This document shows, in pieces, positions 440-57,872 of a stretch of 57,872 nucleotides of DNA (positions within the stretch are counted from its first letter, which is position 1; each line of letters opens with the position of its first letter). Origin of the DNA: Heterotrichella gracilis (taxonomy: Eukaryota > Sar > Xanthophyceae > Tribonematales > Xanthonemataceae); the NCBI GenBank assembly GCA_032358255.1, contig JAULBX010025652.1, positions 1-57,872 on the forward strand. Reading direction: 5' to 3'. Position numbers and translations under genes: made by a program. The notes beneath the pieces are model-generated. The model made no database searches. It saw only the letters and a list, made by a program, of their open reading frames with translations, and was not told the origin of the DNA.

Positions 440-3400
440 TCGTCGACTGGCAGCAGACCTTCCCCATCGAGACCACCAGCACCAGTGGTGGGGGCTCCTC
501 CTCCACCGGCATCATCGTGGGGGTGGTGGTGGGGGTGGTGGCGCTGGCGGCGGTGGCTGCCCTGGGCTGGTGGTGGGTGTCCAGGCGCAGGGCGCGGGAT
601 GCTGCGGCGCTGGCGGCTCAGAAGAAGGCGCTGGATGTGGAGTATGCGGACTCTGCGCGCCTCAACAGCAATGACAGCGGGGATACGATCAAGAAGGCGC
701 TCAAGGTGAGTGCTCCTAAAGATGTTGGCGGGGGGGAAATTCGGAGTTAAGTGCTTGGGCTTTTTTGTTGAAACTTCATGTGCAAATCCCTGACATTATC
801 AAGAAGGCACTCAAGGCAGAAGTTTTGCAGAATACCACTGGTGCAAACCCTAGTTGTGCCCGGGGTTCTTGATGTCCATGGACTCCTGTGCTGTCGGAAA
901 GTGAACACCCTCACCAACTCACCCTCCCCCACACCCCAACTACCCCAGGAGGGCCTATTCGCCAGCGGCACCACCACCACCCCCGAGGGCCTGGCTGCAC
1001 ACGCCGAACTCAAGGCAATCATGCTGGATGTGCCCCCCGACAGCGTGCGGGATGCGCTGGACACCCCGCTGCCCAACGCTGCGTGGGAGGACGGTGTTAT
1101 CAAGGGGGATGACCTGCGTGTTGCTACTAATAGTCAGGGCAAGGAGATGGTGCTGGGCGTGGGAGGCTTTGGAAAGGTGCGGGTCTAGGGTTTTGATTTT
1201 TGGGCGGTAGGGTTTTGCATGGTATTGGTGGCGAGGCAGGGCAGCATGCAGGGGATGGTTGGTGCGATAGTGATTACATGCATTCCAGCAAATTCCTGTT
1301 TTGAAGGGGTCAGCAGCCCAAGCTCCTGCACAAATCCACACTTCTCAAACAAGTAAGTAACCACAAAGAAAACATTAAAAAAGACCATCCAATTCCCCCT
1401 CAACCTCTCCCATACACCCCGCCACCACAGGTGTACAAGGCCATCCTCAACGACACCATGCCCGTGGCGGTCAAGGTGATCCACACCGAGGACCCCAAGT
1501 ACTACCGCAAGTTCCTGCACGAAATCGCGCTGCTCAAGAGCCTGCGCTCCAACTACGTGGTCCAGTTCATGGGGGTCTCCCTCAGTAATGACAACAAGCT
1601 GATGCTGGTGACTGAGTACATGGCGGGTGGGGATTTGTCAAGGGCAATTGAGAACGGGCTGGTGGAGTGGAGCAAGAGGTGGGTGGTGGTGGTGGCGGTG
1701 TGGGGGAATGAGGAGGTGTGTGTGGTCTGTCTGGGGTAGACGATGGGTGGGCAGGTGTGGAATTGCATCTCTGTACACTGTAAACCGCACTGCATGTCCA
1801 AATCCTTCCTGGCACGGGTCAGCGCACTGGACACGCCACGGGCATGCGCTTCAAAACCCTACTTTGTCCTCAAACCCTAACCGTAACCCCACCTCATTGC
1901 GCAGGGGCCGCCGCATCTGCCTTGACATCGCCATGGGCCTGCACTTCCTGCACTCCAAGAGGGTCATCCACTTTGACATGAAGTCATCCAATGTGCTGCT
2001 CACGGCGCAGTTTGCGGCAAAGCTGGCGGACGTGGGGCTGGCCAAGGTAGGGTGTTAGGGATTGGTAGGGTTTTCACGTGCTGCTCACGGCGCAGTTTGC
2101 GGCAAAGGTGCCAGACGTGGGCATGGGCAAGCTGGGGGTTTATAGGGTCTTCGTGGAGGGATTTGAGGGGTTTGCCCTGTTACCTTCATGCCTTTGCCCC
2201 TGCACGGCGCATGGTGCCCCTGTGCCCCCACCCCTAAACCCTGAACCCTCATACGGCACGCGCTGCATGGGATGGAATCAGGTCCACCCCACCCTCCCAC
2301 CCGCACCACAGCATCGTCTGCCCCCTTCTCCCCGCCACACACACATTGCATGCCCTTGCAAAAACACCGAGCCCACAATTGCCAACCACCTGCCCTCCTC
2401 ATGCCCACCCTCCTCACCCCTGCCACCCTACCCCCCACAGGTGGCCGGCACCACCCGCGTGACCGGCACCATCGGCACCCTCCCCTACATGGCGCCGGAG
2501 CTCATCGACGAGCGCAAGTGCGATGAGAAAGTGGACATCTACGGGTTTGGGGTGGTGGTGTGGGAGGTCATCACGCGGGAGAAGCCACAGAGGGGCAACA
2601 TCCGCGAAGTCATGTAAGTTGCGCTTGCCAAGTGATGTTTTACCCTAAACCCTAGAGATTACGCCCCAAAGTTTGGGCCTGAAATCTGTGCTCTAGGCTT
2701 GGCATCCTAGTGTCAGCCCTGAACCCTACAAGGGTTTGGGGTTGGTGGTGTGGGAGGTGATCACGCGGGAGAAGCCGCAGAGGGGCAACATCCGCGAAGT
2801 CATGTGAGTCCATGTTGTTTGTGTGAACCCCATCAGCACCCTTGCCAGCAATTGCTTTGGAACCAACAATTCCAGCTTGTGCCGGCCTTGTGCCCCCCGT
2901 CCCAACCCTGGTTACCCTTAACCACACACCCGTGCAGGGTGGCTGAGGACTGTTTTGAAGGCATTGAGGCACCGACCCAGCTGTGCATGAATTGTGACCC
3001 TGACACCCTCCCCCCATTCCCGCCCACTTACACTTTTGCGCCCCACCCCCACCCCCCACTCCCCAGCCCCCAGCCCTTGCCTGGCATCCAAGGGAAACCC
3101 TGAACCCTAAACCTTTACCCTTCAAACCCGCAGCGTTGGCGAGGAGTGCTCCGAAGACATTGCTGCACTGATCCAGCTGTGCATGGACCGAGACCCCGAC
3201 CAGCGCCCCTCAGCCAAGGACATCATCGACTTCCTCAAGACCCAGGGACCGCAGCGCTCCAGCAGCTCCAACTCCTCCAGCTTCATGTCATCCAGCATGG
3301 TGTCCAGGCTGAGCTCGCGCGGGGGGTCCAGCCAGGTGAGACTTTGGATGGGAAGAGTGGAAATGGACGGTGGGAGCTGCCAGTATATGCTCCTTTTTGG

Positions 3401-3980
3401 GATTCCTACTAAGATACTGAAAATCTAAAGTAAGTAATGAAAATGGTGTTTTTTGTGGTGGCGGTGGCGGTGTAGCGGCCCCCCTAGCAGCTCAAACTCG
3501 TCTGGCTTTATGTCATCCAGCATGGTGTCCAGGCTCAGCTCGCGGGGGGGTCGAGCCAGGTGCGATTTGGGGGGGGATGTGGGTGGGGAGGGTGGAAATT
3601 GACATGGGGAGTTGCCCCATGTACATGCTCTTTGTGGGGCGGCGGGTGGGCTTCAAATAACACTGCATTGTGAATGGACTCGGAAGTTTCCACGATCCCC
3701 AAGCGCCACCCTCCATCCCTGCAGGGCTCCGGCAGCACCCTCCTCATGAGCCCCTCCTTATACCCTAAGAAGATTTTACAATCCTAATCCCAACCCTCCA
3801 TCCCTGCAGGGCTCTGGCAGCACCATACCCAAGAGCAACCAGCCCTCGGGGAACAGCACAATCCCCGAGGACGCGCCCCTGATGCCCATGCCACCCCTGG
3901 CGCAAGCGCCACACGACTCGGGAGCCAGCGTGCCCGACACAACCCCCGGGATGAGCCCATTCGGGGCGCCCCCCTCATGA
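440..3980 (+). CDS. Membrane-anchored Ser/Thr/Tyr protein kinase (non-RD, Raf/TKL-like), 3' part of gene
   Basis: Seven exons are read: 440-705, 949-1176, 1431-1678, 1905-2046, 2441-2613, 3134-3335 and 3810-3980 (TGA). They give about 475 residues with all phases closing. The visible N-terminus is a Ser/Gly/Thr-rich linker, then one membrane span (about residues 24-46, ending WWWVSRRR), so the kinase should be cytosolic on a receptor-like protein; the start and any ectodomain lie upstream. Kinase motifs in order: glycine loop GVGGFGKV (split between exons 2 and 3), VAVKV lysine, HFDMKSSN catalytic loop, DVG in place of DFG, YMAPE, and DxYGFGVVVWE. The catalytic Asp, Lys and Asn are present, but Arg of HRD is Phe (non-RD) and DFG is DVG, so activity without activation-loop phosphorylation, or reduced activity, is possible. 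The tail is Ser-rich then Pro-rich. Introns carry at least six ghost copies of exon ends. The family call is firm; ligand and substrate are unknown. Confidence 0.9.
792..819 (+). repeat. Ghost copy of kinase exon 1 end
   Basis: A decayed copy of 682-707 (the end of exon 1 around the ATCAAGAAGGC motif) lies about 110 bases downstream in the following intron. The donor GT is changed to GC. Confidence 0.75.
2077..2136 (+). repeat. Ghost copy of kinase catalytic-loop exon end
   Basis: A direct copy of 1991-2051 (the exon encoding NVLLTAQFAAKLADVGLAK plus its donor) begins 86 bases downstream inside the intron. It has several substitutions, and the donor region is degraded. Confidence 0.9.
2732..2810 (+). 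repeat. Ghost copy of kinase exon 5 end with intact donor
   Basis: A copy of 2542-2620 (encoding GFGVVVWEVITREKPQRGNIREV) lies about 190 bases downstream and still ends in a consensus donor, GTGAGT. It has no obvious acceptor of its own. Heptamer-like AACCCTA sequence lies between copy and parent. Confidence 0.92.
2929..3003 (+). repeat. Ghost copy of kinase exon 6 start with intact acceptor
   Basis: A copy of 3128-3200 (acceptor plus the start of the exon encoding ALIQLCMDRDPD) lies about 200 bases upstream of the parent. It retains a GCAG acceptor but the reading frame has diverged. Confidence 0.9.
3480..3565 (+). repeat. Ghost copy of kinase exon 6 Ser-rich end
   Basis: A copy of about 3255-3340 (encoding the SSFMSSSMVSRLSSRGG region) lies in the next intron and ends in a GCCAG-GTGCGA donor-like site. 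Confidence 0.9.
3709..3740 (+). repeat. Ghost copy of kinase last-exon acceptor
   Basis: This is a copy of 3797-3828: the pyrimidine tract, CTGCAG acceptor and first codons GSGST. It lies 88 bases upstream of the real acceptor and is still a plausible splice site. Confidence 0.85.
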
Positions 3981-13822: not shown

Positions 13823-16800
13823 TCACCAGGGCACCTCCTCCCCCTTGTAGTCGTACCACCGCCCGTTGAGCGGCCGCCCATCCTCCAGCACCCCCACCAG
13901 CCCCCGCACGCACTGTTGGGTGCTGATGAGCCCCTGGTTGTTCACCATGTCGGTGCGCACATAGCCGGGGTGCAGCAGCACGCACGTCACGCCCTCACTG
14001 CCCAGGTCGATGGACAGCGACTTGTTGACTGCAGGCCAAGGAGGGAATATGAATTTACGGTTACGTAGCATAAGGTTGAGGGTTTGAGGATTGATACAAC
14101 ACTTAAAATGAGCCCTAAAAATGGAGCGCTAAACCCTAAAATTTAACAACCCTACACCCTATACCCAAATCGGCACACAGCCGAGGTGCAGCAGCACGCA
14201 TGTCACGCCTTCGCTGCCCAGGTCGATGGACAGGGACTTGTTGATTGCAGGCAATGAAGTTCGAGGGTTTAGGGGTACGGGACGGGACTGTTTAGGGTTT
14301 AGGGTAGGGTTTTCTCGCTGCCCAGGTCGTTGGACAGGGCATAAAGTGCATGGTGTGGCCCACTCTTTGGTCCTCATCAACCAAAATTTGCTCACTCACC
14401 CACCTGCATTGCGCGCTGCATGTAAATCCTAAACCCTAAACTCTGCTCACACAATGATGGTATAAACAGTGGCAGGACAGAACTGCTTGGCGTCGCATGT
14501 GCAAGACTGGCTGCTAATCTGGTTGTGATGCCGGAAGGCATGCAACTAATCATTTGATCATCAATAATAAACCGAAACCCTACACGTACCAACGTTGCAA
14601 CGCGTGGAGCGCTGCCTTGAACCCTAAACTCTGCACCCACCTATGTTCAGCGCTGCCTTGGAAGCTCGGTATGCGTAGCAGCCCCCAGATCCATTGTCAT
14701 CCACTGAACCCATCTGCGGGCATGGCACAACGTTGTCATTGCAAGGCATTCACGACATGTGGTCATTGTCAAGTGCAGTCACGCAACTAACTCGTTGTTG
14801 CCTGATGAGGCACCTTTGTAATGATTAGCATCGCCAGCGGACCCTATACAAAATTTCCACATTTTTAACGTATTTCAAACCATTGATTTTTTCGACAATT
14901 TGAGCAATGGTTCCTTTGTGATGATTAGCATCACCAGCGTCCTCAACTTACTACATATGATTTTCCACAATTGCTTTTTCAACAGGCCTATACCTTTGAA
15001 GCCATGCTTTAATGGCCTCCCTTATACCATGATTGTTGATATTGCCTTGATTATACCATGCCATACCTGCTCTTACACATATCATTTATGATTTATGAAC
15101 AGCATGACTTGCACCACCTAATCCCAGAATTGTGTGGTATACTCTCTGCCCCTCATATTGCATTTGGGATTATACTACACTTTTTTTCCGCATCATTATA
15201 GCAGCTAAAAGAGCACACCTTTGAGGTCATGTTTGCCACCACTGAGCCCCTCCCCAACAGCCCCCGCTTGTGGATCTGCTGCGTGACCAGCAGGGGCCCA
15301 ATGGCATTAACCGTGAAGCAATGCAGCATGTCGCGTGTGGACACCTCCTCCATGTCCTTCCACCCGTCAATCACACCCGCGTTGTTCACCAGGTACTGCA
15401 TGGAACAAGAGCACGCCGTTTAATCCATTATTATTATCATTTTTGATTTTTTTGGGTGTGTTTACCACATGCGTTGTTCACCAGGTACTGCATGGAACAA
15501 GAGCACACCGATTAGATGTGTCATGCATGTTTATTTTTCTATTTTATATAAGAATATGCAGAATTCAAACAGTCAAGAGGGAGCCAACACGGGTTCATCA
15601 GAAATTTAAACTTTATGCAAAGCTAAGAACCAAAATGGATATCACAAGGATTACTTGACTTCACAATCAGGGATCCAACCCGAGCTCGCAAATACTGATG
15701 AAGGAAGACATCCATGATGGGTGGGTGCTGCTGCAATTGACTACATGCAGCAGACACATACACGCAAAGGGTGCGGGTGCATAAGGGGGAGGCACTCACG
15801 TCGATGCGAGGGAATTTCCCAGCCACCGCCTCTGCAAACGCCTGCACCAGCAACCACACAGAAGGGTCACACAAGGGGTCTTGAATCGCCATGCGTCACT
15901 GGGGTTAGGGTTTAGGCCACCAAGCGGCTGCTGATCTTGCAGCATGGCTGAAATGCCCTCGTCACACCCTCATAACCAGTTGACAAATCTAGCAAATGTA
16001 GCAAATATAGCAAATCTAGCAAAATTTAGCTAAATTTAGCAAATCTAGCAAACTTAGCTAAATGGGCACCTCAATGGAGCCTTCATCCGCCACATCCAGG
16101 GGCAGTATGGTCAGCCCGCTTGCTTGCTTGGCCAGCTGGTGCAGCTTGGTTGCCTTGGCCACGTCGCGCACCCCCGCCACCACGCTGTTGCTCTTCTCAA
16201 GGAGCTGCCTGGTGAACTGGAGGCAGCCGGCGGAGAAAGGGTGGTGAGGGTGGGTACTCAAGGTGGAGGGGGTGGTACTCAAGGTGGATGGGGTGGCGGT
16301 GGGGTTAGGGTATGCAAGGGGGAGGGACGCGGGTGCGGGAGCTGGCTGTTCCTGGCGCGTCGCGCACCCCAGTCACCACGCTGTGTGCAACCCTCCAGCT
16401 GTTGCCTGGTGAAATGGAAGCAGGTTGCGGACAAGGGGGTGAGGGTTTCTCACTAAAGCTGCCGAATGATGTGGATGTGGGTGTGGGTGTGGGGTTTACA
16501 AGGGGATGGAAAGAGGGTGCGGAAGGGTGCTGCCGTTGCCACACTGCGGGGATCATGCCCCGGACTGATGCCTGTGGTGGGGACCATCGCGGTGGTTTAG
16601 ATACTGAAGCCAGGGTTCAAACGCAGCTGTGTCAGGGTTACTGGGTGCCTTTGTGAACCTCTAAGCCAATCCCCCTGTTGGCCCCAGTGACAATGCACGT
16701 CTTGCCGCTGATGCTGACCCCTGCCATCACCACACCCCTGCGCCTGACCAGGGACTTGGGCTGAGGTCTGGGTCGGCTGAAGACAGCTGTGTGGGTGAAG

Positions 16801-41333: not shown

Positions 41334-42912
41334 ATGCAGTCCGCTCGCACCGTCTCCCTGCGCCCGGTAAGCTCGGTTTCGACACCATCCTAGTTCAGTA
41401 GCCAACACACTGCCTAGGCACGCAGCATGCCGATCTGCAGCTTGGTTTCCGGCAGTAATCACCAAACCCATACTCATAGTCGTGGATGCGGCCCGTATCA
41501 GCTTGCATAACGGGCAGGCATCCTTATCCCTCCTCCCATGTCCCTGCAGGCCTCCATCAGGGGCACCCCAGTGGTTGCTCGCGTGTCGGCAAACAGGTCG
41601 ACCCGCGCCGTGCGCCTGATCACCCGTGCTGCTGCGGTAAGCCATAGCATGCAGGCCACGCCGTGGGTTGCTGCTCCTGGTTTTGGTGTGCGTGCCCACT
41701 GACCTGGGTGCATGGTGCAGGATAACGCAAAGGTGCTGGCTGATGTCAGGTCCATCATTGCCGAGCAACTAGGCGCAGACCTTGACAAGGTGGGTATTGA
41801 CTTTGCTGTAGATACAACGGTGGGCAGGGGGTTGGGGGTGTTGAGGTGTCCTTTCAGGATTGCAATGCACAGACCACCTGCTGGGCATTGGATTGCCTTG
41901 GCTAGGTGTATGGCACCACTACTGCAGTAGAGCAGCATCAAGGTCATCAAGGGGTGAAGTATGCTGCATGTGTCCTTATTTTGTCAGGCAGATCCAAGAC
42001 AATAGGTCTTTTGCATATATAAACCTGCCAGCGGCTGTACCTGATGCCCCACCGCATGCATGCAGGTGACCCCAGATGCCAAGTTCGCTGACCTGGGCGC
42101 AGACTCCCTCGACACAGTAAGTAGCAACTCCCTTACTTCATGACAACCTCCTTGCCCCTTTTGCTGTGACAAGTGTGCGCATACAGTGATATTCCAACAG
42201 TTGCCAGTGCCTGACTGACACACCACTGGTTGGAGTCGATGCCAGCAGAGCTGCAAAGAGTCCAACCACTGGTGTGCTGCCAGTTACTGGCAACTGTTGG
42301 TGTATCATTGTATGCACACACTTGTCACAGCTGCGGTAGCAGATTCCGTGGCTTGCACTGGGCGCACAACCACCTGCTAGTCCCTGAATGTAGCTTGTGT
42401 CACTCTGCAGGTGGAGATCATGATGGCTCTGGAGGAGAAGTTTGACATCACCCTGGACGAGGAAGGTACGGGTCACGTGTGATGAACACTCATAACAGTG
42501 CAGTGTACAATCAATTCTTCCTTGGCAGCACCGATGGTTTGCATGCTGCTACATTGCCGACTGGTTGGCCACCATCTGCCACACTGGAAACAGTGTCAGT
42601 TAAGCCTTGGCTCTAGGACTGGGGTGAGGCATACCCAGACATGCTAACCTGGCTTCAAAGCTGGAAACCAAATACTTACTTACATTGCCAAGGGGTGTAG
42701 CGTTGCCCAGGTATGGGGTATGTATGATGAACACCTCTCTTCAGGCACTGCAGGCACTCGATTGAGTGCTTTGTACAGCCAATCTGCCCATGGGTAGACC
42801 AATGACCTGCATGCTGCTAGATTGCTGAGAAGGTATTTTTATGTGCCCAGGTGCTGAGAAGATCTCCACAGTCCAGGAGGCCGCCGACCTCATCGCCGCA
42901 GCCATCCCGTAA
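41334..42912 (+). CDS. Acyl carrier protein, plastid fatty-acid synthase type
   Basis: Six exons: 41334-41366, 41550-41636, 41721-41789, 42066-42116, 42411-42465 and 42851-42912 (TAA), 118 residues. The first 40 residues (MQSARTVSLRP, then ASIRGTPVVARVSANRSTRA) are rich in Arg, Ser and Ala without acids, typical of an algal plastid transit peptide. The mature part carries VRSIIAEQLG, FADLGADSLDTVEIMMALEE with the Ser of DSL that receives 4'-phosphopantetheine, then EEKFDITLDEEG and TVQEAADLI. The length of the mature domain is normal. It carries growing acyl chains for type II fatty-acid synthesis in the plastid. Intron 4 contains a long hairpin and intron 5 a dispersed repeat. TGTAA at 43107-43111 is a likely poly(A) signal. 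Very secure. Confidence 0.97.
42164..42330 (+). ncRNA. Near-perfect intronic hairpin (candidate small-RNA precursor or MITE)
   Basis: In ACP intron 4 (42117-42410) the left arm, about 42164-42237, pairs with the right arm, about 42258-42330, with a loop of about 20 bases. The outer 40-odd bases of the stem pair with only about four mismatches (for example CTGTGACAAGTGTG at one end with CACACTTGTCACAG at the other). Long near-perfect hairpins in introns are a known form of miRNA precursor in Chlamydomonas. A foldback MITE is the main alternative; no clear target-site duplication was seen. Confidence 0.6.
42556..42685 (+). repeat. Dispersed repeat, intronic copy
   Basis: About 125 bases in ACP intron 5, from GACTGGTTGGCCACC to AATACTTAC, nearly identical to 49451-49575. 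No coding capacity. The CTTCGAAGCTGG element of the other copy vaguely resembles an RNA polymerase III B box, so a SINE-like element is possible. Confidence 0.88.
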
Positions 42913-45699: not shown

Positions 45700-48600
45700 A
45701 TGCCTAGGGCCAGCTTGAGTGGGGCGCTGCAGCCAATGGCAGCCGTGGTGTGGCCACTCCTCCTGCTACTCCTTAGTGTACAGCTAGGGGGCTGTGCTGC
45801 GCCTGTCAAGGCCCCCATGGTGCCCTGGGCCGCCAGCAGGCCCAACAGCTGGTGGATGGACCTGTACTTGTCCTTTAAGAAGACTATCAACAACGACCTG
45901 GCGCTCGGAAAGGTAAGCGAAGAAAGAAAGGAAGAAAGGGGACGCACAAAGGCGTGGTCAGGGGGCCACTGGCTACAGTACCAAAAGCTTTGTCTCCGCC
46001 AGCTGGGGTTTTACCTGACCTGTCCTAGATGTGTGGAGTTCGGTAGGGTAGCGGGGGCAAAGGGTGTAGCCTGGGTTTTCTGACCTATCCTGCCCCTGCC
46101 CTGACCTGCATATCCGTACTGAACAACTGTCCGGCACCTGCATGTTCCCACCCTGCAATTGCAGCGCAATGGAGTGCCTTTGCATGGAGTGCATTCTGCT
46201 GGACGCACCCTGGACTTGTACCAAGCACTGGTACTAACACAGTGCACAGTGCCTTTCCCTACTGCTTGCCCGCTTGCACCCAGCAGGACGTGCCCTGGAC
46301 TCGAGTGTCACGCACTGCTGTAGCACCGGTAACTAACATGGCGTTAATTTGTATCCGCAGAAATTTGATCTGGTGCTGTATGGGGACTCCATCTTTAAAA
46401 TCCTGCTGGGGACCAACCAGGGCCGCAGGGACGCCATGAGCTGGGACCTGCTGGGCGACCGGAACGTGTACCAGGAGTGCGTCAAGAAGTATCTGCCCAG
46501 GACCCAGGTGTTTGGCATCGGAGGTGAGGCACGGGACTGGCAATGATAGATGAGTCGCAGTCAGAGGCGCAAATTCAGCTAGCATATATAATATGTGCAA
46601 TATATGATATATTGCTTTTTGTGTCCCATACAATCTTCATGAACAATACTGGCAACAGGTCATAAATGCACCCTGCTGTAGACTTGAGGGCAACTTGAAA
46701 AGTACCTTGTTTTATGTCAGGGTTGATTATGTAGCAGGAAAGGTGCAGTAGGCAACTGGTGTGCAATCGCCTGCCACTGTTTAGGGTATCAGCAGTGCAC
46801 CACCTGGATGCATATCCTGGATGCACATCCCCACACGCGGATTGCATGGGCTGGGTACATGTCGGGGGTGGGGCATGCCGGTTAATTGCAAGTGCACCGG
46901 GTGGCGTGAGCACATCGCTGGTTTCCTGCATTTTTAGAATACCAATATATATTGCTGTTCATGTATTGCTCCTGCTGCGTGTTCGTGCAGGTGACACCAC
47001 CAAGCAGCTTGCCTTCAGGCTGCAGCACGGGGAGCTCAACACAATAATTTATTGATTTACTGCAATTTTAATAAAGACATCAATATACTGCAGGCGACAC
47101 CACCCAGCAGCTTGCCTTCCGGCTGCAGCACGGGGAGCTCAACACACAGATGAAGCCCAAGGCAGTGGTCATGCTCAGTGGGGCAAACGACATGCGCCTG
47201 CTCAAATGGGTGGGTGGCCATGCCTAAAACCCTAAACCCCAAACCCTAAATGACATGTGCCTGCTGAAATGGGTGCGTGCCCTGGGCTAAACCCTTAACC
47301 TTAAACAACATGCGCCTGCCGAAATGGGTGCGTTCTCATGCATGTTAGGGATAGGGTTAATGGGCGGTGGTACCACAGACAGCTGCCTTGTCCAAAAGCC
47401 ACATCTGCATTGCCCGATTCAGTGCCGCTGCATGCGAGCCACGCCCTAGACCTTGCACCCTAATCCACATGATGAGCCACGCAGCGGACCATCCCAGGCC
47501 TGAACGGCACCCTGTTCCCCCACATCATGAACCCTAAACCCTAAACCTGAGAATATGCCACGCAGCGGACCATCCCAGGCCTGAACGATACTAAAAGATA
47601 CCCTCTTCCCTGCATCATGATCCCTCAACCATATTTCGTATCATGTGCCACGCAGAGGACCATCCCGGGCGTGAACGACACCCTCACCTCCCGCATCACC
47701 CAGCTGACGCACCAGCTGCGGGTGCGATCAGCTAATGCCAAGGTGTTTGTGGTCAACATCCTGCCACGTGGCACCTTTGACCTGGATGTCACGGCCAGCA
47801 AGTGCGGCACAAACCCTAAACCCTACCCTACACCCTACATCTTAAACCCTGAACCTGGCGTCACATAGCAAAGTGCGGCCTGAACCCTACATCCTGAGCC
47901 TGGAACCTGCATGGATGCTGCATGGATGGATTGTGCATGGACCATGCATGGATGGAACCACAAGGTATACCACAGTTGGTCGGTCGCAGGAGCTGAGCGC
48001 TTTGCACACCCTGCAGGTACACACCCACCATCTTGGAGGTCAGGCGCCGAGTGCTTTGTGAACTCTAAACCCTAAACCCTAAACCCTGCAAGTACACACC
48101 CACCATCTTGGAGGTAAACAAGCGGTTGCGGGCAGGCGCCGCCAAGAACGGGTACACCTTTGTGGACTGCTACGACGAGTTCTTGTATGTCAAAGGGGTA
48201 AGGAACATCCGCCAGTGATCGTAGGAAATTATTTGCAGCATGCCATGGCCGCGATCCGATGCATTTGTTCACATACTTACACATTTAAATATCTCTCTGG
48301 TAATTTTCATTGATTTTCATGATGTAGATTTCACTACATATTTTGTACTATTTGTTTTTTATCGAATTGATTAATTTTGGAGGTGTTGTTTTTTTTCATT
48401 GTTTTTTTTCCATGGAGTCCTGGATGTTTGACACCAGCTTCCTTCCGTTGATTATTACATGTTAGTTTACACATGTATTTACCCCTTGTCGCACAGGGGC
48501 GCAGGTACGTGAAGTCCAATTGGAATCCTCCCTTTTTTTCTCGCATGTACATGTATCAAAATAAAAAGTCTTCCTTTGCCACCCCAGGGCCGCACGTACA

Positions 48601-49267
48601 TGAAGTCATGGATGATTGATAGCAGCTTCCTTCCCTTGCTCACTAGGATTTAGCTTATATGTGTAACCCCACCTTGCCATCACAGGGCCACACCTACATG
48701 AAGTCTTGGATGTTTGACAGCAGCTTCCTACACCCCACCGCCTCCGGCATGAAGCAGCTCTTCAACTGCCTGCTGCCCACGCTCAGCCGCGTGCTCCCCT
48801 CCCTGCCCACCACCTGCAAGTACGATGACACCACTAAACCCTAAACCCTAAAGCTGCAAGTACGATGACACCAAGTACCTGCCCCCACACCTGGACCCTA
48901 AAACCTAAATCTGCAGCTTTAATGACGGCAAGTACCTGCCATCAACACTAAACCCAAACCCTGCAAGGTCGGTGACAGCAAGTACCTGCCCTCAACCCCA
49001 AACCCTAAAACCCTAAGCCTGCAAGTATGATGACAGCAAGTACCTGCCCTCAACCCTCAACCCAAAACCCTAAACCTTGAGATTTGATGACAGCAAGTAC
49101 CTGCCCTCAACCCTCAACCCAAAACCCTAAACCTTGAGATTTGATGACAGCAAGTACCCGCCCTCAACCCTCAACCCTAACGCCTAAACCCTACACCCTT
49201 AATCTGCAGCTTTGATGACAGCAAGTACCCGCCCCCAACCACCACCAAGATGGCCCGGGCTGGGTAG
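45700..49267 (+). CDS. Secreted SGNH/GDSL-type hydrolase
   Basis: Eight exons: 45700-45912, 46361-46523, 47094-47209, 47656-47801, 48017-48038, 48114-48197, 48686-48819 and 49210-49267 (TAG), 311 residues, phases closing. The N-terminus has a signal peptide (AAVVWPLLLLLLSVQLGGC; the ATG 12 codons in also fits). SGNH blocks: I, DLVLYGDSIF (Ser nucleophile); II, GIGGDTTQQLAFRL (Gly); III, VVMLSGANDMR (Asn); V, DSSFLHPTASG (Asp-x-x-x-His, one residue longer than the usual DxxH). The family comprises esterases, lipases and carbohydrate deacetylases such as PAF-acetylhydrolase-like enzymes; the substrate is not readable. Every intron from exon 2 onwards is full of ghost copies and CCCTAAA runs. 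Exon 5 is split by a 75-base tandem duplication. The last exon choice (49210) is one of several similar acceptors in an array. Confidence 0.85.
46987..47042 (+). repeat. Ghost copy of SGNH exon 3 start
   Basis: A copy of 47090-47143 (acceptor plus GDTTQQLAFRLQHGELNT codons), 103 bases upstream. It keeps a GTGCAG acceptor and the correct phase, then runs into a stop, so inclusion would give a truncated product. Confidence 0.95.
47190..47340 (+). repeat. Ghost copies of SGNH exon 3 end, with telomere heptamers
   Basis: The exon end at 47190-47215 (NDMRLLKW plus donor) recurs at 47250-47280 and 47308-47338. AACCCTAAACCCC-type heptamers lie between copies (47228-47249 and around 47290). Confidence 0.92.
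47478..47612 (+). repeat. Two ghost copies of SGNH exon 4 acceptor
   Basis: 47478-47518 and 47555-47612 copy 47647-47695 (CCACGCAG acceptor plus RTIPGVNDTL codons). Both retain an AG acceptor. CCCTAAACCCTAAACC lies between them at 47530-47546. Confidence 0.95.
48011..48115 (+). repeat. 75-base tandem duplication that forms a 75-base intron
   Basis: The 30-base segments at 48011-48040 and 48086-48115 differ at one base. Frame requires the acceptor of the first copy (AG at 48015-48016) and codons YTPTILE to 48038, then a GT-AG intron 48039-48113, then VNKRLRAG from the second copy. The difference, CAGG to CAAG, destroys the second copy's in-phase acceptor. Three CCCTAAA units at about 48064-48087 fill the middle. 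Confidence 0.85.
48411..48640 (+). repeat. Three ghost copies of SGNH exon 7 start
   Basis: 48411-48447, 48495-48517 and 48582-48640 copy parts of 48681-48740 (CAGGGCC acceptor, TYMKSWMFDSSFL codons). The third is the most complete and keeps a CCCAG acceptor. Confidence 0.9.
48812..49250 (+). repeat. Exon-junction minisatellite with telomere heptamers
   Basis: Seven or eight units, mostly 55-75 bases apart, each containing a CTGCAAGTAC or CTGCAGCTTT junction, then GATGACAGCAAGTACC-like sequence, and ending in CCCTCAACCCTAAACC-type heptamers. The first unit is the end of exon 7 and the last is the start of exon 8. The units near 49075 and 49135 are nearly identical, so the array is still turning over. 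Confidence 0.95.
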
Positions 49268-49450: not shown

Positions 49451-49575
49451 CGACTGGTTGGCCACCATCTGCCACACTTGAAAGAGTGTCAGTTAAGCCT
49501 TGGCTCTAGGACTGGGGTGAGGCATACCCAGACATGCTAACCTGGCTTCGAAGCTGGAAAGGAAATACTTACGTA
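49451..49575 (+). repeat. Dispersed repeat, intergenic copy
   Basis: Nearly identical to 42556-42685 in ACP intron 5, same orientation, about 6.9 kb away. It ends in a TTACGTACTTACTTACG short repeat. Confidence 0.88.
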
Positions 49576-50741: not shown

Positions 50742-50873
50742 GACACCTGCACGTGCAACCCGAGTCCCGAAAAGCATGTGTTTTATCAAATAGGAAAGAC
50801 AACGTTGACACCTGCACGTGCAACCCGAGTCCCGAAAAACATGTGTTTTATCAAACAGGAAAGACAACGTCGA
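50742..50873 (+). repeat. 66-base tandem duplication
   Basis: Two adjacent units that begin GACACCTGCACGTGCAACCC and differ at a handful of bases. No coding sense in either strand. Confidence 0.93.
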
Positions 50874-51557: not shown

Positions 51558-54500
51558 ATGGCTATTACGATGGCCAGGCGGGTTCGACCTGCCATGCTGC
51601 TGCAGCTTGCAGCAGTGGTGCTGCTGTTCCTAAACCCTGCTGAGCTCCCAATGGCAGGTGGGGTGTTGAACGAATGCATATATGCCAGTGTATTTATAGT
51701 GCACTCGCAAGGGCCACACACCGCCCACCTGGCTGCCAAACCTTATACCCTACACACCGCCCACCAAGGCTGCAAACCCATATCCCTCAACTGTCCATCT
51801 GGTTGCAGTATCCTACACCGGTGGTACCCTACACCCTTCACCTTGCTGCAAAACCAGGTGGCAGGTTTCACGGAGCTGGTTGGAGTGACAAGTCCAACTA
51901 CATCAACATTTGTATTTCCACCAACCTTGATAATTTACGCTTTGTCTTTCTCCGTGTCAGACGCTACCAACTCCCCACCACCCAAGAAGTCCCCCCCTCC
52001 ACCCAAACCGTCCCCCCCTCCACCCAAGCCACCCAAGTCCCCCCCTCCACCCAAACCGTCCCCACCTCCACCCAAGCCAGCCAAGTCCCCCCCTCCACCC
52101 AAACCGTCCCCCCCTCCACCCAAACCACCAAAGTCACCCCCGCCGCCCAAGAAGAGCCCACCACCCAAGAAGAGCCCACCACCAACCCCACCACCACCAT
52201 CGCCACCACCGTCCCCCTCGCCACCACCACCACCATCCCCACTGGCCCCCTTCAAGGTCACCTTCCTGCACATGAACGACATCCACGGCAGGGTGCAGCC
52301 CCAGTCCTCGTCCTTCTCCACCTTCAACAACGGGGGGCAGTGCGGGGCGAGCGCCACAGCTGACGTGGCTTGCTATGGGGGCTGGGCGCGCGTGGCGGCA
52401 GCGGTTGCCTCCGAAAGGGCAAACGTGGCGGTGAATGGGCCAGACGTGCTGCTGTTGGATGCAGGTACTGTTTACTTGTTGTACTTAAAATCAGATTTTA
52501 GATTTAGATTTACAATTAAAATTAAATTTCACTTACTGTAAAAAATGCACACGTGCCGGTGAATGGGTCAGATGTCCTCCTAATGGATGCAGGTGAAGTG
52601 TCCATTTATTTGGTTTCTTAATTGAATAAGTACTCAACTTTTTAATCATTATTTATGTCAATGTCCTTCTGTTGGATGCAGGTAACAAGGGCCTGCATAC
52701 CTTTTCAACCCTGCCAGACCAGGGTACCTAGGTGATACCCTAGGTGCCTGACATTGGGGTTCACAGCATCGGCACCCTGAACCCTAAACCCTAGGTACCT
52801 GACATGTGGTTCACATGCTGTCCCCCAGGTGACGTCAGCATCGGCACCCTGTGGGACTTCATCTACAAGGTCTCACAGGAGCCATGGTACCAAACCACAT
52901 TCGGATTCCAGGCAATGGTGAGTTTGCACAAAAGTTCCAAAATAAATAAATAAATATCTACGTAGCCTTGAACAGGCGCGTTGGTTAAGGAAGAGGATTG
53001 AGCAAAGACAAGGGCATTGCCCTGCTGCCGACTGTTTCCCCTACCATATGCAAAAAGTTCCACTCTTTTCCCCGTACATGGTACCAAACCATGTAGGGTT
53101 TGCAGGCACTTGTAAGTTCAGGAAATTCCAGCGATTTCCCGCACGTGGTACCAAACCATTGCTGGGCTTTAAGGCAATGGTGAGTTTACATGAAAGTTCA
53201 ACTCGGTGTCATTAGCGGTCAGGGTGTTCACACTGAATCCTAAACCCTAAAACAGTGGGAGTGGGCGCCTGTCTCGTGTCCTGTTGTGTGACAGATGTAT
53301 AGTGTAAATATTAAAATGCAATGTACCCATTGCGGCGCTGTGCTTGCAGACTGGGCAACCACGAGTTGTCGGCAGGCCAGGCCTCCTGGCCAATTATGCA
53401 TGAAACCCTCAACACCTAACCCTGAAACCCTAAAGACCCTACGGATGAAACCCTAAACCCTGATCTTTTATGCGTGCAGACGCTGGGCAACCACGAGTTT
53501 GACGGCGGCCCAGCACACCTTGCCAACTACATCAAGCAGGTGGGCAAGCTTGCAGGAGCAAACTACAACGACAACCCCAACGGCACCTACCCCCTCCCCC
53601 TGCCCTCCCTCGAACCCGACGCGGGCGCGCCACCTGTTAAGATCCTGGCAGCCAACATCATCACCACCGATCCGGCGTTCACCCAGGACCTGATCGCGCC
53701 TTACATCATCATCCCACTCAGCAACGGCATCAAGGTAGGGATATCATATATGCAATGGCACACGCCCTCTCGCTCCTTAGTCATACTCTACCCCTTTAGT
53801 GTTTTCCACCGGGGACACTCGCTGCATGCATCAGCATTGTCCAATCGCAGCTCGACTTAAATTGGAAGAAATGTGTAGTGCCTGGATGCACTCAGTGTGC
53901 TCGTTTTACAGAAACTGCAGTTGTGCTTGAATTCCAGTGCAGCCTGTTGCAGCGCATTCATTAGAATTGCAATTGCAACTCTCTGCAACCCCTTACCCTG
54001 GCCACTTGATCACATCCGGACGATGCATCCCCCATGCAGGCAGGAGTGTTCGCACAGAGACCCTGAATCTTAAGCCTTAAACAGCCCTGTACGTGTACAC
54101 CCAGTTTGGGCCCCCTGCAAGTGGGTGTGTTCTGAGTGGTCACCACGGAGACCCTAAACCCTAAACCACAACTCCACAAAGCTGGAAACCCTTTGGCCAC
54201 AACTGGTTTGGTCTTCGCTGCAGGTGGGTGTGTTTGGAGTGGTCACCACCGAGACCCTAAACCACAACTCCACAAACTGGAAACCCTTGGCCACAATTGG
54301 TTTGGTTTTCCCTGCAGGTGGCTGTATTTGGCCTGGTCACCACCGAGACCCCCGGGATCTCCTCTCCCGGACCCTTTGTCACATTCATGGACCCCATCGC
54401 AACAGCCCAGGCCACTGTCGCCAATTTGACTGCCATGGGCATCAAGCACATCATCGCGCTAACCCATCTGGGTACGGACCTGGAACTCTAAAACCCTAAA

Positions 54501-57500
54501 ATAAAACCCTAAACCTGAAATCTTGAAAGCCTTGGACATCAAGGCTTGAGAACATGGCACTCTCGCCAGGCATGCATGCAGGGGCAGCCTGGGACCTATA
54601 TAGACATGCGTAAGGGGGGTTCAACCTGTATATACTTTAACGTGCACAAGATTATAGAAAAGAGTTACTGATGCTTACTGGCTGCAAACATAGCACATTC
54701 ACAAGGCCATGTAAATATTCCTGGTCTGCGTTTTCCCTTTTTCCCTCCAAAAGCAATACATTTTTATACCATAAAAGTAAGGAGGGTAAAAGGCATTGTT
54801 TTTTCCCCTTCTTTCATTATCTGATGTATTTGTTTACTTTTACTCACTCGGAGGCCAATCGGTTTTTGCAGGCATGGATGATGACGTGAAGCTAGCACAG
54901 GCAGTGGATGGCATCGACCTCATCATCGGCGGCCACTCACACACATTCATCGCAAACGCACCAGTGGTGCTCAACGTAAGCCTTGCAGCTGTGTGCGTTC
55001 ATTTGCGCACTGTATGCACCTGCCTGTAGGGTTTGTTTGGAGGGTGTTAAGGTTTAGGGCTACACTAAACCCTTGATTAAGATTACTAAGATTAAAAATA
55101 TCTTAGTACCCTTGGCATGGTGCACCGCTCCTGCCTCTGCACCCACTATGTAGAGCAATGCATGCACACAGCTCCAGCCATGGCATGAATTTATGTAGAC
55201 TAACCATCCATTACATGCAAACCCCCAAAGGGATGCATCCACCGAAAGGCTGGCAATTAGACCAATAGTTACTTACATGCATTCCAGCAATACAGCTAGA
55301 GTACCGTAGCAGTCAGCCTTGCACATCCGGCGCCACGCAGCTCTTTCCTGGCATAGGTTTGCAATTATAATACTCGCTTTGTTGGGGGCTATGCGTAGCT
55401 GCTATGCCGCCTTATGCACGCCTTTGGCGTTTATTTTATTTTATTTTCTTTTCCATTGGTTGCCAGCCGCTGTTATAGCCCTTGGTCCCCCCTGTGGTCT
55501 GCGACTTGACATATGCCAATGACAAATGCACCTGTTTATCAATGTTTATGTGTTTTACATCATGCAGACGGTCAGCTCCACTGTGACCCGCGACTTCCCC
55601 TTCACCAAATCCTACACCCTACACCCTAAACAGTTTTATCAATGTTTATGTGTTTTATATTATGCAGACTGTTGGCTCCACTGTGACCCGCGACTTCCCA
55701 TTCACCGTCAAGGGCACCACCAACCAAACCTACAGCTACCCCTACGTGGTCAACAACACAGCCACAGGCAAGGGAGTGCCCATCGTCACTGCCTACTGCT
55801 ACTCCAGGTGGGTGGTGTAGGCTCGAAAGCTTGCTTGCCGGCAGCAATCCTGCTTTTCTGGCAGCAGTTGGATTTGTTCAAAAGTTTTACTACTACCATT
55901 ATCATCTATATAGACTTTTTATTTTTTATTTTATCTTGGTAGCCCACACGCCATGCAGATGACTGGGCAAGCTCATGTCCACCTGGGATGCTGAGGGCAA
56001 CCTGCTGGGATGGGGCATTCTAGCAGCAAGAAAATAAGGGAAAAACCCGGGATTATACCAGAAAAGAGAAAGGAAGAAAGACAAACCGCATGCGAAAATT
56101 GCAGTACAAATAGCAATGGCTGCGGTGTGACTCACTGCAACCGCTGGGCCATTCTTGCAAATGTAATTTTGCTCCATGCAGGTACCTGGGCAAGCTGATG
56201 TCCACCTGGGATGCTGATGGCAACCTGCTGAGCTGGGACTCTGGCAGCGGTCCCATCCTGCTTGGTGGCACCAACTCCTCCAACCCAGTGGCCAACGACC
56301 CCTCCATCAAGGCGCGAGTGGATGTGCAGTTCCAGCCCCTGGCGGCGCTCAGCGCGCAGACTGTCGGTACGTTTAGGGTCTAGGGTTTACTATGCCTTAA
56401 GGCTTTGGATTACCGGTGCCAGCCTCTGTCGGCGCAGACTGTCAGTACGCTAACCAGGGTATAGGGTTTAGGGTTTACGTGCTTCTGCCGTGCCCCTGGT
56501 GACTACTACAATATGTTGCAAGTCCCTACCAATATAGTGATATCCAATTTTAAGTATTTTGTTTATTCACTGACCCCACGGCCAGGTTCTTCTGCCGTGG
56601 CCCTGGTGCGCGACTATCACAATATTATATATCACATTATATATATCTTATTTGCTTATTTCTTTTGTGGCCCCACCGCCAGGTTCTTCTGCCGTGGCCC
56701 TGGTGCGGGACTACTCCAACGAGTCCAACATCGGCAACTCCATAGCAGACAGCATGGTGTGGCTGGCGCAGAAGCGATTGGCTGCCAACCTATACCCAGC
56801 AAACATCCCGATCATCGGCATGCAGAACTCGGGTGGCATCCGTGCCAACCTGGCAGCGGTGAGTGGAAACCCTAAACCCTAAACCCTAGGCGCAGACTGG
56901 CACAGGCACTCCAAACCGTAAGTACCTCCAAGCGTACGCGCACAAACCGCACAGAAACCCTAAACCCCTTGCTTGGACTGAGCACAGGGAACCTCCCCAT
57001 CGTGCAGGGCACCATCACCTATGGGTCGGTGGTGAGCGTGCTGCCCTTTGGGAACACACTTGCCGTGGTGAATGTGAGCGGTGCTGCGATCAAGCCCGGG
57101 ATGGAGTTTGTGGTGGGGGATACCAACGGCGCCTCGCCCAAATTTGCACAGGTAGGTCTGCCAAATACTGTTGGTCGTTTTCGAGCGTTTCAGCAGTCAT
57201 TTGAGTGAGCACTGGGCCAGTTTGGCACGTGGCGCAGGGACTGCCACCCTATGCACTGTGCATGTGTACCAGCATGGGTATGTGCGTATGTGCATGGGTA
57301 TAAATGTATGTGTAGAAAGAATGAAAGAAACAAAACGCCCCCACACAGGGCGGCAAACCACAACAAAGCAATGTTGGAAAACACAGACAGGCATGTGTGT
57401 ATGTGCATGTGCATGGCCCCACCATTCTGGGTGGCATGGCATGGCATGGCACCCATTATGCACGATCAAACATCAAACACCAAACACCAAACACCAAACA

Positions 57501-57872
57501 TCTTGATGTTTGAAAACATCAAACATCAAACATGCTGCCGAGGCGCCACTAGTGGACAGCAACCACTCACAGCACCTGCCATGTGGGCCTGCAGCTGTTT
57601 TAATTGTACTTATACTATAAGCTTATATTTTGTACAGTATAAAGTGTGATCGTAGCTGTATCTTGGGTTGTTCCATGTGCCCGCTGTCCAACATGCGCGT
57701 TGGCTATTTTAGTTGTACTTATCTAAAACAAATGTCATTGTAACGGTACTTGTAACTAGTTGCATCAGAGGCTCAATCTGAGGCTGCTCCACTCCCCCCC
57801 GCAGCTGTCCAACATGCGCATCGGCTACAACCCCACCGCACCCTCCGGCTCCCGCATCTCCAAGATCGAGGT
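51558..57872 (+). CDS. Secreted 5'-nucleotidase / metallophosphoesterase with Ser-Pro-rich cell-wall segment (3' truncated)
   Basis: Eleven exons are read: 51558-51657, 51961-52464, 52829-52917, 53480-53734, 54318-54471, 54872-54975, 55668-55807, 56182-56366, 56683-56858, 57008-57151 and 57805 to the window end, about 639 residues so far. Residues 1-34 are a signal peptide (MLLQLAAVVLLFL core). Residues about 38-125 are SPPPPKP/SPPPKK repeats, as in hydroxyproline-rich algal wall proteins. The enzyme follows: metal ligands in LHMNDIHGR, LLLDAGDVSIGT, LGNHEFDGG and GGHSHTF, then the C-terminal nucleotide-binding half with NSGGIRA and ITYGSVVSVLPFGNTL. It should release phosphate from nucleotides outside the cell, anchored in or near the wall. 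AAACCCT occurs inside the coding sequence of the signal peptide. Most introns hold ghost exon copies. The end of the gene lies beyond the window. Confidence 0.95.
52541..52690 (+). repeat. Two ghost copies of 5'-nucleotidase exon 2 end
   Basis: 52541-52595 and 52657-52687 copy 52420-52469 (VAVNGPDVLLLDAG plus donor). Each keeps a GATGCAGGT junction. Confidence 0.93.
52735..52828 (+). repeat. Ghosts of 5'-nucleotidase exon 3 acceptor with telomere run
   Basis: CAGCATCGGCACCCTG, part of exon 3 at 52838-52853, recurs at 52766-52781 and is fused at its ACCCT to GAACCCTAAACCCTAGG. A CCTGACATTGGGGTTCAC element is also doubled (52746 and 52798). Confidence 0.88.
53078..53190 (+). repeat. Two ghost copies of 5'-nucleotidase exon 3 end
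   Basis: 53078-53118 and 53138-53190 copy 52880-52926 (CATGGTACCAAACCA, then the CAATGGTGAGTTT junction). The second keeps the GCAATGGTGAGTTTA donor. Confidence 0.92.
53345..53402 (+). repeat. Ghost copy of 5'-nucleotidase exon 4 start (metal-site NHE)
   Basis: A copy of 53473-53535 (TGCAGAC acceptor, TLGNHEFDGG codons), 128 bases upstream. It lacks CG of ACGCTG and other bases and so is frameshifted. CCCTAAA-type heptamers fill 53404-53460. Confidence 0.93.
54115..54317 (+). repeat. Tandem ghosts of 5'-nucleotidase exon 5 start, units about 104 and 93 bases
   Basis: Units 54115-54218 and 54219-54311 each carry CTGCA(G/A)GTGGGTGTGTT, the VTTET codons, and then switch from GAGACC straight into CCTAAACC; the coding copy at 54318 continues GAGACCCCCGGG. 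The first unit has two heptamers, the second one. A weaker fourth relic may lie at 54035-54065. Confidence 0.94.
55528..55667 (+). repeat. Ghost copy of 5'-nucleotidase exon 7 start
   Basis: 55529-55606 copies 55632-55707: the intron tail (TTTATCAATGTTTATGTG), GCAGAC acceptor, and TVSSTVTRDFPFT codons, offset about 103 bases. The ghost ends in CCTACACCCTACACCCTAAAC heptamers. Its acceptor looks functional. Confidence 0.95.
55950..56020 (+). repeat. Ghost copy of 5'-nucleotidase exon 8 start
   Basis: A copy of 56172-56237 (CATGCAG acceptor, LGKLMSTWDADGNLL codons), about 222 bases upstream. Confidence 0.93.
56367..56460 (+). repeat. Ghost of 5'-nucleotidase exon 8 end between telomere heptamers
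   Basis: The junction GCGCAGACTGTCGGTACG of the parent (56354-56371) recurs near 56433-56450. TTTAGGG-type heptamers follow both the parent (56371-56389) and the copy (56457-56478). Confidence 0.88.
56476..56640 (+). repeat. Two ghost copies of 5'-nucleotidase exon 9 acceptor
   Basis: 56480-56510 (short, decayed) and 56571-56622 (near-identical, with a CCAG acceptor in the correct phase) copy 56670-56720 (SSAVALVRDY codons). Confidence 0.92.
56868..56892 (+). repeat. Interstitial telomere-type run
   Basis: Three consecutive CCCTAAA units start within ten bases of the exon 9 donor. It is one of the cleanest such runs in the window. Confidence 0.95.
57470..57533. repeat. Seven-base AAACACC / AAACATC repeat
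   Basis: A short array of AAACACC and AAACATC units with an inverted portion (GATGTTTGA), in 5'-nucleotidase intron 10. The unit length equals that of the telomere heptamer but the sequence differs. Confidence 0.85.
57681..57712 (+). repeat. Ghost copy of 5'-nucleotidase exon 11 start
   Basis: A copy of 57801-57830 (GCTGTCCAACATGCGC, codons LSNMRIGY), about 120 bases upstream. The acceptor has decayed (CCGC in place of CGCAG). Confidence 0.92.

Follow-up and report, generated by a model that had tools for sequence, protein, structure and literature searches.

Direct copies of exon edges, often parted by telomere-like filler, in introns of the xanthophycean Heterotrichella gracilis

The introns of a 57,872-nucleotide stretch of the draft genome of Heterotrichella gracilis (Xanthophyceae; GenBank assembly GCA_032358255.1, contig JAULBX010025652.1, here contig C314, bases 1-57872; hereafter the window) hold decayed direct copies, which we call ghosts, of the exon edges that adjoin them. 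The usual unit has the form X-F-X, where X is a direct exon-edge copy with a median of 39 exon bases and 26 intron bases, and F is a filler between the copies that in many cases carries the telomere repeat of the host. We consider it somewhat probable that these units are scars of staggered breaks that were filled in and joined over telomeric or other filler, with selection keeping the duplicates that contain a whole exon edge.

The material consists of the window and 26 other pieces of the assembly, a draft of 68.5 Mb in 903 contigs, for a total of 298,465 bases. On reading, its genes and the style of its introns strike us as green-alga-like. Twenty-eight further pieces had been fetched, and exclusion of two (L004 and L005, from contigs C100 and C145) with 35% GC and long uninterrupted bacterial-looking reading frames left the 26 nuclear pieces; piece L001, which duplicates the window, was dropped before counts. 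The two excluded pieces probably derive from culture bacteria, which we take to be Bacteroidota-like, and no local repeats of the kind described here were found in them. Genes were modelled with our own hidden Markov model (HMM) gene finder, seeded with hand-read exons and retrained on itself, after first settings that over-predicted or merged genes had been discarded. From the models we removed 45 predicted exons (shorter than 20 nt, or ghost-like copies of a longer exon) and all genes scoring below 25, giving a final set of 59 genes, 393 exons and 668 splice junctions; because the removal of ghost-like exons uses the repeats themselves, some edge-crossing calls depend on that rule. The splice signals learned by the self-trained HMM are conventional (donor approximately AG/GTGNG, acceptor approximately GCAG/G), and all nine window proteins match Pfam families with full models, model parts or hand-chosen parts: protein kinase, short-chain dehydrogenase, SAPS, MORC-like ATPase, acyl carrier protein, GDSL hydrolase, 5'-nucleotidase, CXC/tesmin and D-Tyr-tRNA deacylase, the last of which fell below the score cut-off and was excluded from the counts.

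Local repeats were scored in both orientations at a threshold of at least 34 bits, and across the 298 kb they are nearly all direct (169, versus 4 inverted); an initial annotation of the window, made by eye, had described its intron copies as direct. The direct repeats group into 109 clusters, 71 of which pair an exon-intron edge with a copy of it inside the adjoining intron; the remaining clusters are intron-only (11), intergenic (9), between coding sequences (CDS-CDS, 8), derived from exon sequence without a junction (8), wrong-side (1) or mixed (1). Alignments were printed for the better-matching events, and the counts cover all 71. When pairs were permuted along each piece, with near-zero shifts allowed, the mean number of edge-crossing clusters was 14.7 and the maximum 38 in 1000 permutations. 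The contrast holds within the window (32 of 41 clusters, against a mean of 4.5 and a range of 0-15 in 2000 shuffles) and outside it (39 of 68, against a mean of 10.1 and a maximum of 21 in 2000), so that a chance origin is rejected by the permutation together with the inverted-repeat control. These placement counts support the proposal of a local same-strand copying process with survivors at splice junctions. They also bear out the assertion that the copied unit spans a junction and is seldom an exon middle, since exon-sourced copies without a junction, some of them at gene ends, account for just 8 of the 109 clusters, 2 of these being among the 41 of the window. With dust masking turned off (simple or telomere-like pairs and offsets below 40 dropped) the counts barely change, at 73 edge-crossing clusters of 114 with 11 intron-only and 9 intergenic, and masking bias is thereby rejected as a cause of the pattern.

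When the edge-copy clusters of the window are merged with their array members, 39 ghost tracts result, spread over six genes on both strands: the kinase, MORC-like, GDSL hydrolase and 5'-nucleotidase genes on the plus strand, and the short-chain dehydrogenase and SAPS genes on the minus strand. The "more than forty" intron copies reported at the outset are thus real, with the number to be read as 39 merged tracts or 32 clusters. Enrichment elsewhere in the genome had been put forward for checking; it is present, with at least one edge copy in 15 of the 26 other pieces, at a lower density than in the window, which at 0.258 edge events per splice junction versus 0.072 is about 3.6-fold richer. 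Events are also uneven among genes (chi-square 101.9, 56 df, p 2e-4), and in the window repeat analysis no edge copies were seen in the CXC gene (12 introns) or the acyl-carrier-protein gene (5 introns). Among all modelled genes, ghost-bearing introns lie nearer the 3' end (mean relative rank 0.50 vs 0.39, p 0.008).

The copies obey a rule of side. Acceptor-edge copies lie upstream of their source and donor-edge copies downstream in 71 of 72 edge-crossing clusters, a side from which normal splicing would remove the copy with no change to the mRNA. Under uniform placement about a fifth would be expected on the wrong side, as judged from the permutation ratio (binomial p 9e-7); the bare count is 1 against a permutation mean of 3.9 with a standard deviation (SD) of 1.8. 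CDS-CDS repeats are mostly in frame, with 6 of 8 offsets multiples of three, whereas edge-copy offsets modulo three (22:22:27) are without frame preference. Side rule and frame pattern are what selection on random local duplications should leave, and they agree with the suggestion that the copies are "only tolerated" at junctions. A separate duplicate, at 13648-13723 and 13783-13858, spans the modelled stop-codon end of the dehydrogenase gene, with the copy downstream, as tolerance would allow.

Tolerance alone is nevertheless insufficient, because intron-only and intergenic duplications should be equally tolerable and yet are scarce. Exon-anchored pairs are easier to detect, by 1.3-2.0 fold in simulation, which is too small for detection bias to be the full cause: with detection weights of 1.6 and 2, edge events outside the window still exceed intron-only plus intergenic events (p 2e-8 and 1e-6), and exceed intron-only events alone less strongly (p 4e-4 and 0.004). 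The idea that the process "prefers" junctions accordingly finds partial support, firmer in the wider comparison than in the narrower one. Tolerance and easier detection explain much, and not all, of the concentration at exon edges, and events appear to strike coding borders more frequently than the inside of introns or intergenic DNA. GC content was rejected as a driver, exon-edge GC being 0.633 for hit and other edges alike (p 0.74); in the arms of intron-only and intergenic repeats GC is close to background, at 0.50-0.51. Hit edges have a slightly raised CpG density on the exon side (p 0.017) and a reduced one on the intron side (p 0.0015), and they belong to longer exons (177 vs 140 nt).

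In 52 of the 71 edge events the copies are parted by a filler of at least 12 bases. The initial annotation had overlooked these fillers, as it had their telomere repeats, the two classes of insert length and the enlargement of introns by the copies. A plain tandem duplication would make the filler similar to the sequence that flanks the other copy; in the 50 events with a filler of at least 20 bases no such likeness is seen: ungapped identity between filler and predicted flank is 27-29% beside the arms, even though X itself is 88-97% identical in 18 of these events. The filler is unlike the flank even at an X identity of 95-97%, as at 46986/47089 in the window, 704/891 in piece L002 and 8788/8992 in L016. 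The exon part of the copy is longer than the intron part in 18 of 22 events of at least 88% identity (p 0.004). Offsets between copies, which under the X-F-X reading would equal the length added to the intron, are bimodal across the 71 events, at about 97 and 200 bases. Offsets of 126-178 are absent from the 39 events outside the window and occur in 4 of 32 within it (4 of 71 overall), and for the outside set the Bayesian information criterion is 41.4 with one component and 12.6 with two. A double event with a decayed middle copy was considered for the longer class, and explains at most about a quarter of it: 5 of 21 tested fillers match the exon arm at a shuffle p of at most 0.02, 4 of these beating all 100 shuffles. 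To link the two classes to nucleosome spacing would be a guess.

Many of the fillers are telomeric in character. The triple repeat of TTTAGGG occurs 834 times genome-wide, and perfect 42-base arrays give 63 overlapping matches; the reversed control gives 0 in each case. Six contigs begin with a C-rich 42-base array at most 7 bases from the first base, a G-rich array reaches the last base of contig C460, and a few such arrays are internal to contigs. Because the arrays sit at contig ends and the reversed control is zero, TTTAGGG is the telomere repeat of this genome; contig C626 contains two matches to the telomerase RNA-binding domain. TTAGGG/CCCTAA density is 8.3/kb in fillers versus 1.8/kb in the rest of the same introns, and 1.95/kb in other introns of ghost-bearing genes, 1.0/kb in introns of ghost-free genes and 0.56/kb in intergenic DNA; a reversed control motif in fillers gives 1.0/kb. 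A telomere motif is carried by 30 of 52 fillers, compared with 9.8 (SD 2.8, maximum 18 of 200 draws) for length-matched windows of ghost-free introns. The contrast weakens when lengths are not matched: the motif is present in 64 of the 115 ghost-free introns, taken whole, that belong to ghost-bearing genes and in 50 of the 155 that belong to ghost-free genes, and these introns are several times longer than the fillers.

Counted independently of exon similarity, telomere tracts of at least 14 bases are concentrated in introns, which have 88 over 100 kb, as against 18 over 128 kb for intergenic DNA and 1 over 71 kb for CDS (88, 14 and 1.4 per 100 kb); outside the window the numbers are 55, 15 and 1 (70, 14 and 1.8 per 100 kb). 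The tracts are not strictly edge-bound and show only a modest tendency, 50% lying within 50 nt of a junction versus 34% of random intron positions (rank test p 0.07). Filler orientation tracks edge type: donors have the G-rich sense (20:5) and acceptors the C-rich one (17:6), with p 4e-4. The density of AACCCT peaks 25-50 bases upstream of acceptors, where we would expect branch sites, so that selection for splice context may be at work. Fillers without the motif are AT-rich or random-looking, and most fillers, which we judge to be degenerate in sequence, have no detectable relation to their flanks. Fillers of at least 25 nt share only telomere-like stretches, all 20 inter-filler matches at E 0.01 being of this kind. 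Two of three fillers searched genome-wide are single copy, and within the third lies a roughly 70-base dispersed repeat (window 55385-55456; L009 8551-8620), which has at least 40 scored places in the genome including its own.

The copies decay as released sequence should. Ghost and exon differ by 0.096, 0.093 and 0.186 at the first, second and third codon positions (0.060, 0.026 and 0.116 in the high-identity subset), and the 1:1:2 ratio points to a neutral ghost facing an exon that changes only at third positions; the described decay is in this respect well founded. A net frameshift is present in 16 of 71 ghosts and an in-frame stop in 7. Ghost splice dinucleotides are mostly intact (AG 35/39, GT 22/29), so that mis-splicing is possible; other intron-side positions agree at 0.79 and 0.74 each, and the AG and GT pairs are kept rather better than two such positions would be. 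Purging or retention of ghost splice sites was set aside, the pattern being judged, without a formal test, near to neutral decay against a frozen real site. Copy pairs differ by 3-30%, and none of the 71 edge events exceeds 97.5% identity, which does not favour the assertion that the process is continuing.

Edge copying enlarges introns that already exist. The exon part of the copies has a median of 39 nt (13-105) versus 177 nt for the exons hit, so that boundary fragments, and not whole extra exons, accumulate, as had been described. Creation of introns was not seen by the test used: in-register similarity of donor and acceptor (ungapped, score at least 20) was found in 0 of 287 introns of at least 140 nt, with 0.5 expected by chance, a test that worn or shifted cases escape. 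The sole candidate for a whole intron built by edge copying, a possible one, is the array at 48814-49240, in which eight related exon-derived stretches have a mean column identity of 58% and an in-register score of 15, below the cut.

The genes and ghosts of the window are as follows, with the source of each ghost and the identity between the two.

440..3980, plus strand: protein-kinase gene, 5' end outside the window (HMM exons, Pfam Pkinase); 5 edge copies
2078..2137, plus strand: kinase ghost, donor edge; source 1993-2052, junction 2046, 87%
2732..2809, plus strand: kinase ghost, donor edge; source 2543-2619, junction 2613, 95%; 112-nt filler with CCCTAAACCCTA
2912..3004, plus strand: kinase ghost, acceptor edge; source 3115-3200, junction 3134, 72%
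3486..3638, plus strand: kinase ghost, donor edge; source 3261-3401, junction 3335, 77%
3683..3751, plus strand: kinase ghost, acceptor edge; source 3769-3836, junction 3810, 80%
13823..16829, minus strand: short-chain dehydrogenase gene (Pfam adh_short); 3 edge copies
14173..14252, minus strand: dehydrogenase ghost, acceptor edge; source 13957-14036, 91%; 136-nt filler with telomere motifs
15471..15514, minus strand: dehydrogenase ghost, acceptor edge; source 15379-15422, 95%; 48-nt AT-rich filler
16358..16446, minus strand: dehydrogenase ghost, acceptor edge; source 16162-16251, 78%
19250..22919, minus strand: SAPS-domain gene (Pfam SAPS); 2 edge copies
20848..20884, minus strand: SAPS ghost, acceptor edge; source 20725-20761, 92%; 86-nt filler with telomere motifs
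21155..21227, minus strand: SAPS ghost, donor edge; source 21346-21419, 85%; GT of the ghost now GC
24562..33620, plus strand: MORC-like ATPase gene (Pfam Morc6_S5, HATPase_c_3); 8 edge copies
26537..26594, plus strand: MORC-like ghost, donor edge; source 26418-26481, 78%
27024..27129, plus strand: MORC-like ghost, donor edge; source 26866-26972, 80%
27741..27841, plus strand: MORC-like ghost, acceptor edge; source 27984-28079, 76%
28258..28362, plus strand: MORC-like ghost, acceptor edge; source 28366-28470, 86%; 3-nt spacer, effectively a plain tandem duplication
28792..28961, plus strand: MORC-like ghost array, acceptor edge; source 28898-29083, 74%
30028..30149, plus strand: MORC-like ghost array, acceptor edge; source 30114-30235, 93%; 86-nt period
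30678..30724, plus strand: MORC-like ghost, donor edge; source 30441-30487, 79%
31980..32036, plus strand: MORC-like ghost, acceptor edge; source 32121-32177, 86%; telomere-like motifs between and inside the copies
35816..40217, plus strand: CXC (tesmin/TSO1-like) gene (Pfam TCR); 12 introns, no edge copies, an internal contrast
41334..42912, plus strand: acyl carrier protein gene (Pfam PP-binding); 5 introns, no edge copies, an internal contrast
45700..49267, plus strand: GDSL/SGNH hydrolase gene (Pfam Lipase_GDSL_2); 5 edge-copy clusters
46986..47043, plus strand: GDSL ghost, acceptor edge; source 47089-47146, 95%; 45-nt AT-rich filler
47248..47333, plus strand: GDSL ghost, donor edge; source 47185-47278, 77%; overlapping copies at a 63-nt offset, telomere-like motifs inside the unit
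47457..47591, plus strand: GDSL ghost array, acceptor edge; source 47538-47681, 74%
48576..48631, plus strand: GDSL ghost, acceptor edge; source 48674-48729, 88%
48814..49240, plus strand: GDSL array of eight related stretches (CTGCAAGTACGATGAC...) with CCCTAAA-rich fillers between them, from donor 48820 to acceptor 49210
51594..57872, plus strand: 5'-nucleotidase-like gene, running off the window (Pfam 5_nucleotid_C); 9 edge copies
52547..52594, plus strand: 5'-nucleotidase ghost, donor edge; source 52419-52466, 83%
53146..53199, plus strand: 5'-nucleotidase ghost, donor edge; source 52885-52937, 80%
53341..53396, plus strand: 5'-nucleotidase ghost, acceptor edge; source 53471-53529, 80%
54115..54257, plus strand: 5'-nucleotidase ghost array, acceptor edge; source 54218-54351, 86%; CCCTAAA within the unit
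55535..55606, plus strand: 5'-nucleotidase ghost, acceptor edge; source 55635-55706, 92%; 28-nt telomere-like filler
55951..56027, plus strand: 5'-nucleotidase ghost, acceptor edge; source 56174-56248, 86%
56432..56470, plus strand: 5'-nucleotidase ghost, donor edge; source 56354-56389, 82%
56571..56616, plus strand: 5'-nucleotidase ghost, acceptor edge; source 56668-56713, 93%; 51-nt AT-rich filler
57683..57706, plus strand: 5'-nucleotidase ghost, acceptor edge; source 57804-57827, 92%

Other repeats of the window include a young intergenic tandem duplication at 50741-50874 (65-base unit, 96% identity, no filler) and long direct repeats in a gene-poor stretch at 6256-10005 (for example 548 bases at 75% and 230 bases at 93%), whose offsets of 1.2-3.1 kb are of a scale unlike that of the ghosts. 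By eye, a near-identical stretch of about 100 bases is common to approximately 42550-42665 and 49455-49570, and is perhaps a dispersed repeat.

Under the reading that we favour, breaks with long staggered ends would arise within or beside coding exons, and fill-in of both overhangs would double X. The ends would then be joined across filler, often telomeric and otherwise AT-rich or random, the telomeric filler coming from telomerase extension of an end or from captured telomere DNA. Inside a coding exon an X-F-X insertion would destroy the gene, whereas if X contained a whole exon edge with its splice site, one copy would yield the right mRNA and the rest would become intron. The intron would in this way grow from its border, and the spliced-out copy would decay neutrally. 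Several points weigh against this reading. A telomere motif is lacking in 22 of the 52 fillers, and in 19 of the 71 events, which plain tandem duplication may explain, fewer than 12 nt separate the copies. Local scores of flank against filler (14.4 and 14.5) are somewhat raised over shuffled values (12.5 and 12.6, SD 0.4), so that some fillers may hold older decayed units. The orientation of the fillers may fit selection for splice signals as well as it fits extension of the exon-side end, and the first quarter of ghost-free introns has 32 G-rich and 42 C-rich tracts, which fits neither account simply; both orientations being common near donors there, the orientation rule is not general. The reading leaves the residual excess at coding edges unaccounted for, and the genes to which hit edges belong score higher for coding per residue (p 3e-4), so that detection may follow model quality. 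Finally, the order of events and the enzymes behind the copying are both inferred.

The foremost alternative is that slippage or end joining produced plain tandem duplications of 60-240-base units at a uniform rate, and that the intron half decayed twice as fast, selection and the easier detection of exon-anchored pairs doing the rest. It draws on the events with little or no spacer, several of which are 84-93% identical over the full unit, on the simulated detection advantage and on the slightly raised flank-to-filler scores; the dissimilarity of filler and flank beside nearly identical arms, the richness of fillers in telomere motifs relative to matched intron windows, and the excess of edge events that persists at both detection weights make it unlikely as the general account. 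Less likely again is that breaks in introns were mended by copying a nearby exon edge, in which case old intron would make up the filler. In vertebrates, repair is known to duplicate DNA from close by (PMC2671141), and such pasting would leave the real junction untouched. Exon-middle sources would however be just as tolerable, and they number 8 beside 71 edge sources, for expectations of 13.8 and 14.7 under uniform placement; wrong-side copies should be common, yet there is the single one among 72; and telomere motifs are richer in fillers than in ordinary intron edges.

The birth of new introns, whether introners inserted or exon sequence bearing AGGT was duplicated in tandem, finds its one candidate in the donor-to-acceptor array of the GDSL gene, and is very unlikely given the empty in-register test, the single-copy state of two of the three fillers searched and the purely telomere-like matches between fillers. 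We hold it a shade less probable still that ghosts are functional alternative or poison exons: the intact AG and GT of most ghosts would suit such a role, and the neutral 1:1:2 pattern, the frameshifts and stops, and offsets with no bias towards multiples of three speak against it. An assembly artefact might be suspected in a draft of 903 contigs that includes bacterial-looking ones, but is hardly credible, since the copies differ by 3-30%, the local repeats are direct by 169 to 4 and their placement tracks splice sites. Both bacterial-looking pieces lack such local repeats, which is a weak control, as 4 of 18 nuclear pieces, the window not counted, also lacked them in the same pass.

Repair processes with some of these features are known from other organisms. 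Duplications from paired nicks reportedly occur in plants. Short interstitial telomeric sequences (ITS) are telomeric repeats inserted at double-strand breaks in mammals (PMC2246262, PMC7215372); target duplication is a minor feature there, at 6 of 130 rodent, 4 of 25 primate and 3 of 66 horse loci, besides 2 complex loci in the horse, and the horse paper attributes direct target duplication to staggered breaks. The ghosts resemble ITS in that the host's own telomere repeat lies inside chromosomes, with flanking target sometimes directly duplicated, and differ in that the long duplicates of coding-exon edges here have telomere motifs between them and in that introns have about six times the tract density of intergenic DNA. 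Small tandem duplications arise when staggered break ends are filled in, a step that CST-Pol alpha-primase guides in mammalian cells (PMC8355091), CST being a telomeric complex. These duplicate the stretch between two nicks and, like the ghosts, are direct, local, same-strand copies; unlike them, our copies are usually parted by filler (52 of 71, with 19 of 71 below 12 nt) and gather at exon edges.

Introns gained through tandem genomic duplication or through break repair (PMC3443670) likewise come with duplicated coding sequence with splice sites and direct repeats beside introns, whereas here existing introns are enlarged at the border and the in-register signature was found in none of the 287 introns. 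Capture of proximal DNA (PMC2671141) also yields short nearby copies with filler and has splice sites and exons among its donors; of 824 donors, 278 are tabulated as intron and only 8 fall in partial or full exon classes, in contrast to the predominance of coding-exon edges and rarity of exon-middle donors here. Introners (PMC9860276) share with the ghosts a genome-wide occurrence of insertions linked to splicing. Among our fillers, by contrast, no common element was found beyond telomere motifs, no new introns are seen by the test used, and the duplicates measure tens of bases rather than 3-9. Tandem exon duplication differs in producing whole exons, and not edge fragments of the size found here. 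None of the titles and abstract openings found by searching the open PMC literature, which leaves subscription papers mostly outside, describes exon-edge copies with telomeric intron filler. The ingredients of the repair are known; their combination at exon edges and at genome scale appears to be new.

A broader proposal, which we put forward as speculative, is that telomerase and CST fill-in at breaks favouring coding-exon borders may be a standing source of intron lengthening throughout the genome of this lineage, laying down inserts of about 97 or 200 bases made of a spare exon edge and telomeric DNA, with the filler supplying splice context (C-rich CTAA by acceptors, G-runs by donors). The finding joins break repair with telomeric DNA and intron evolution through scars that can be counted in one genome. 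If the one-step origin of X-F-X is true, the ghosts would be a natural record of staggered-break repair in coding DNA, in which overhang length and filler can be read event by event, and introns would be able to lengthen from their borders with the protein unharmed.

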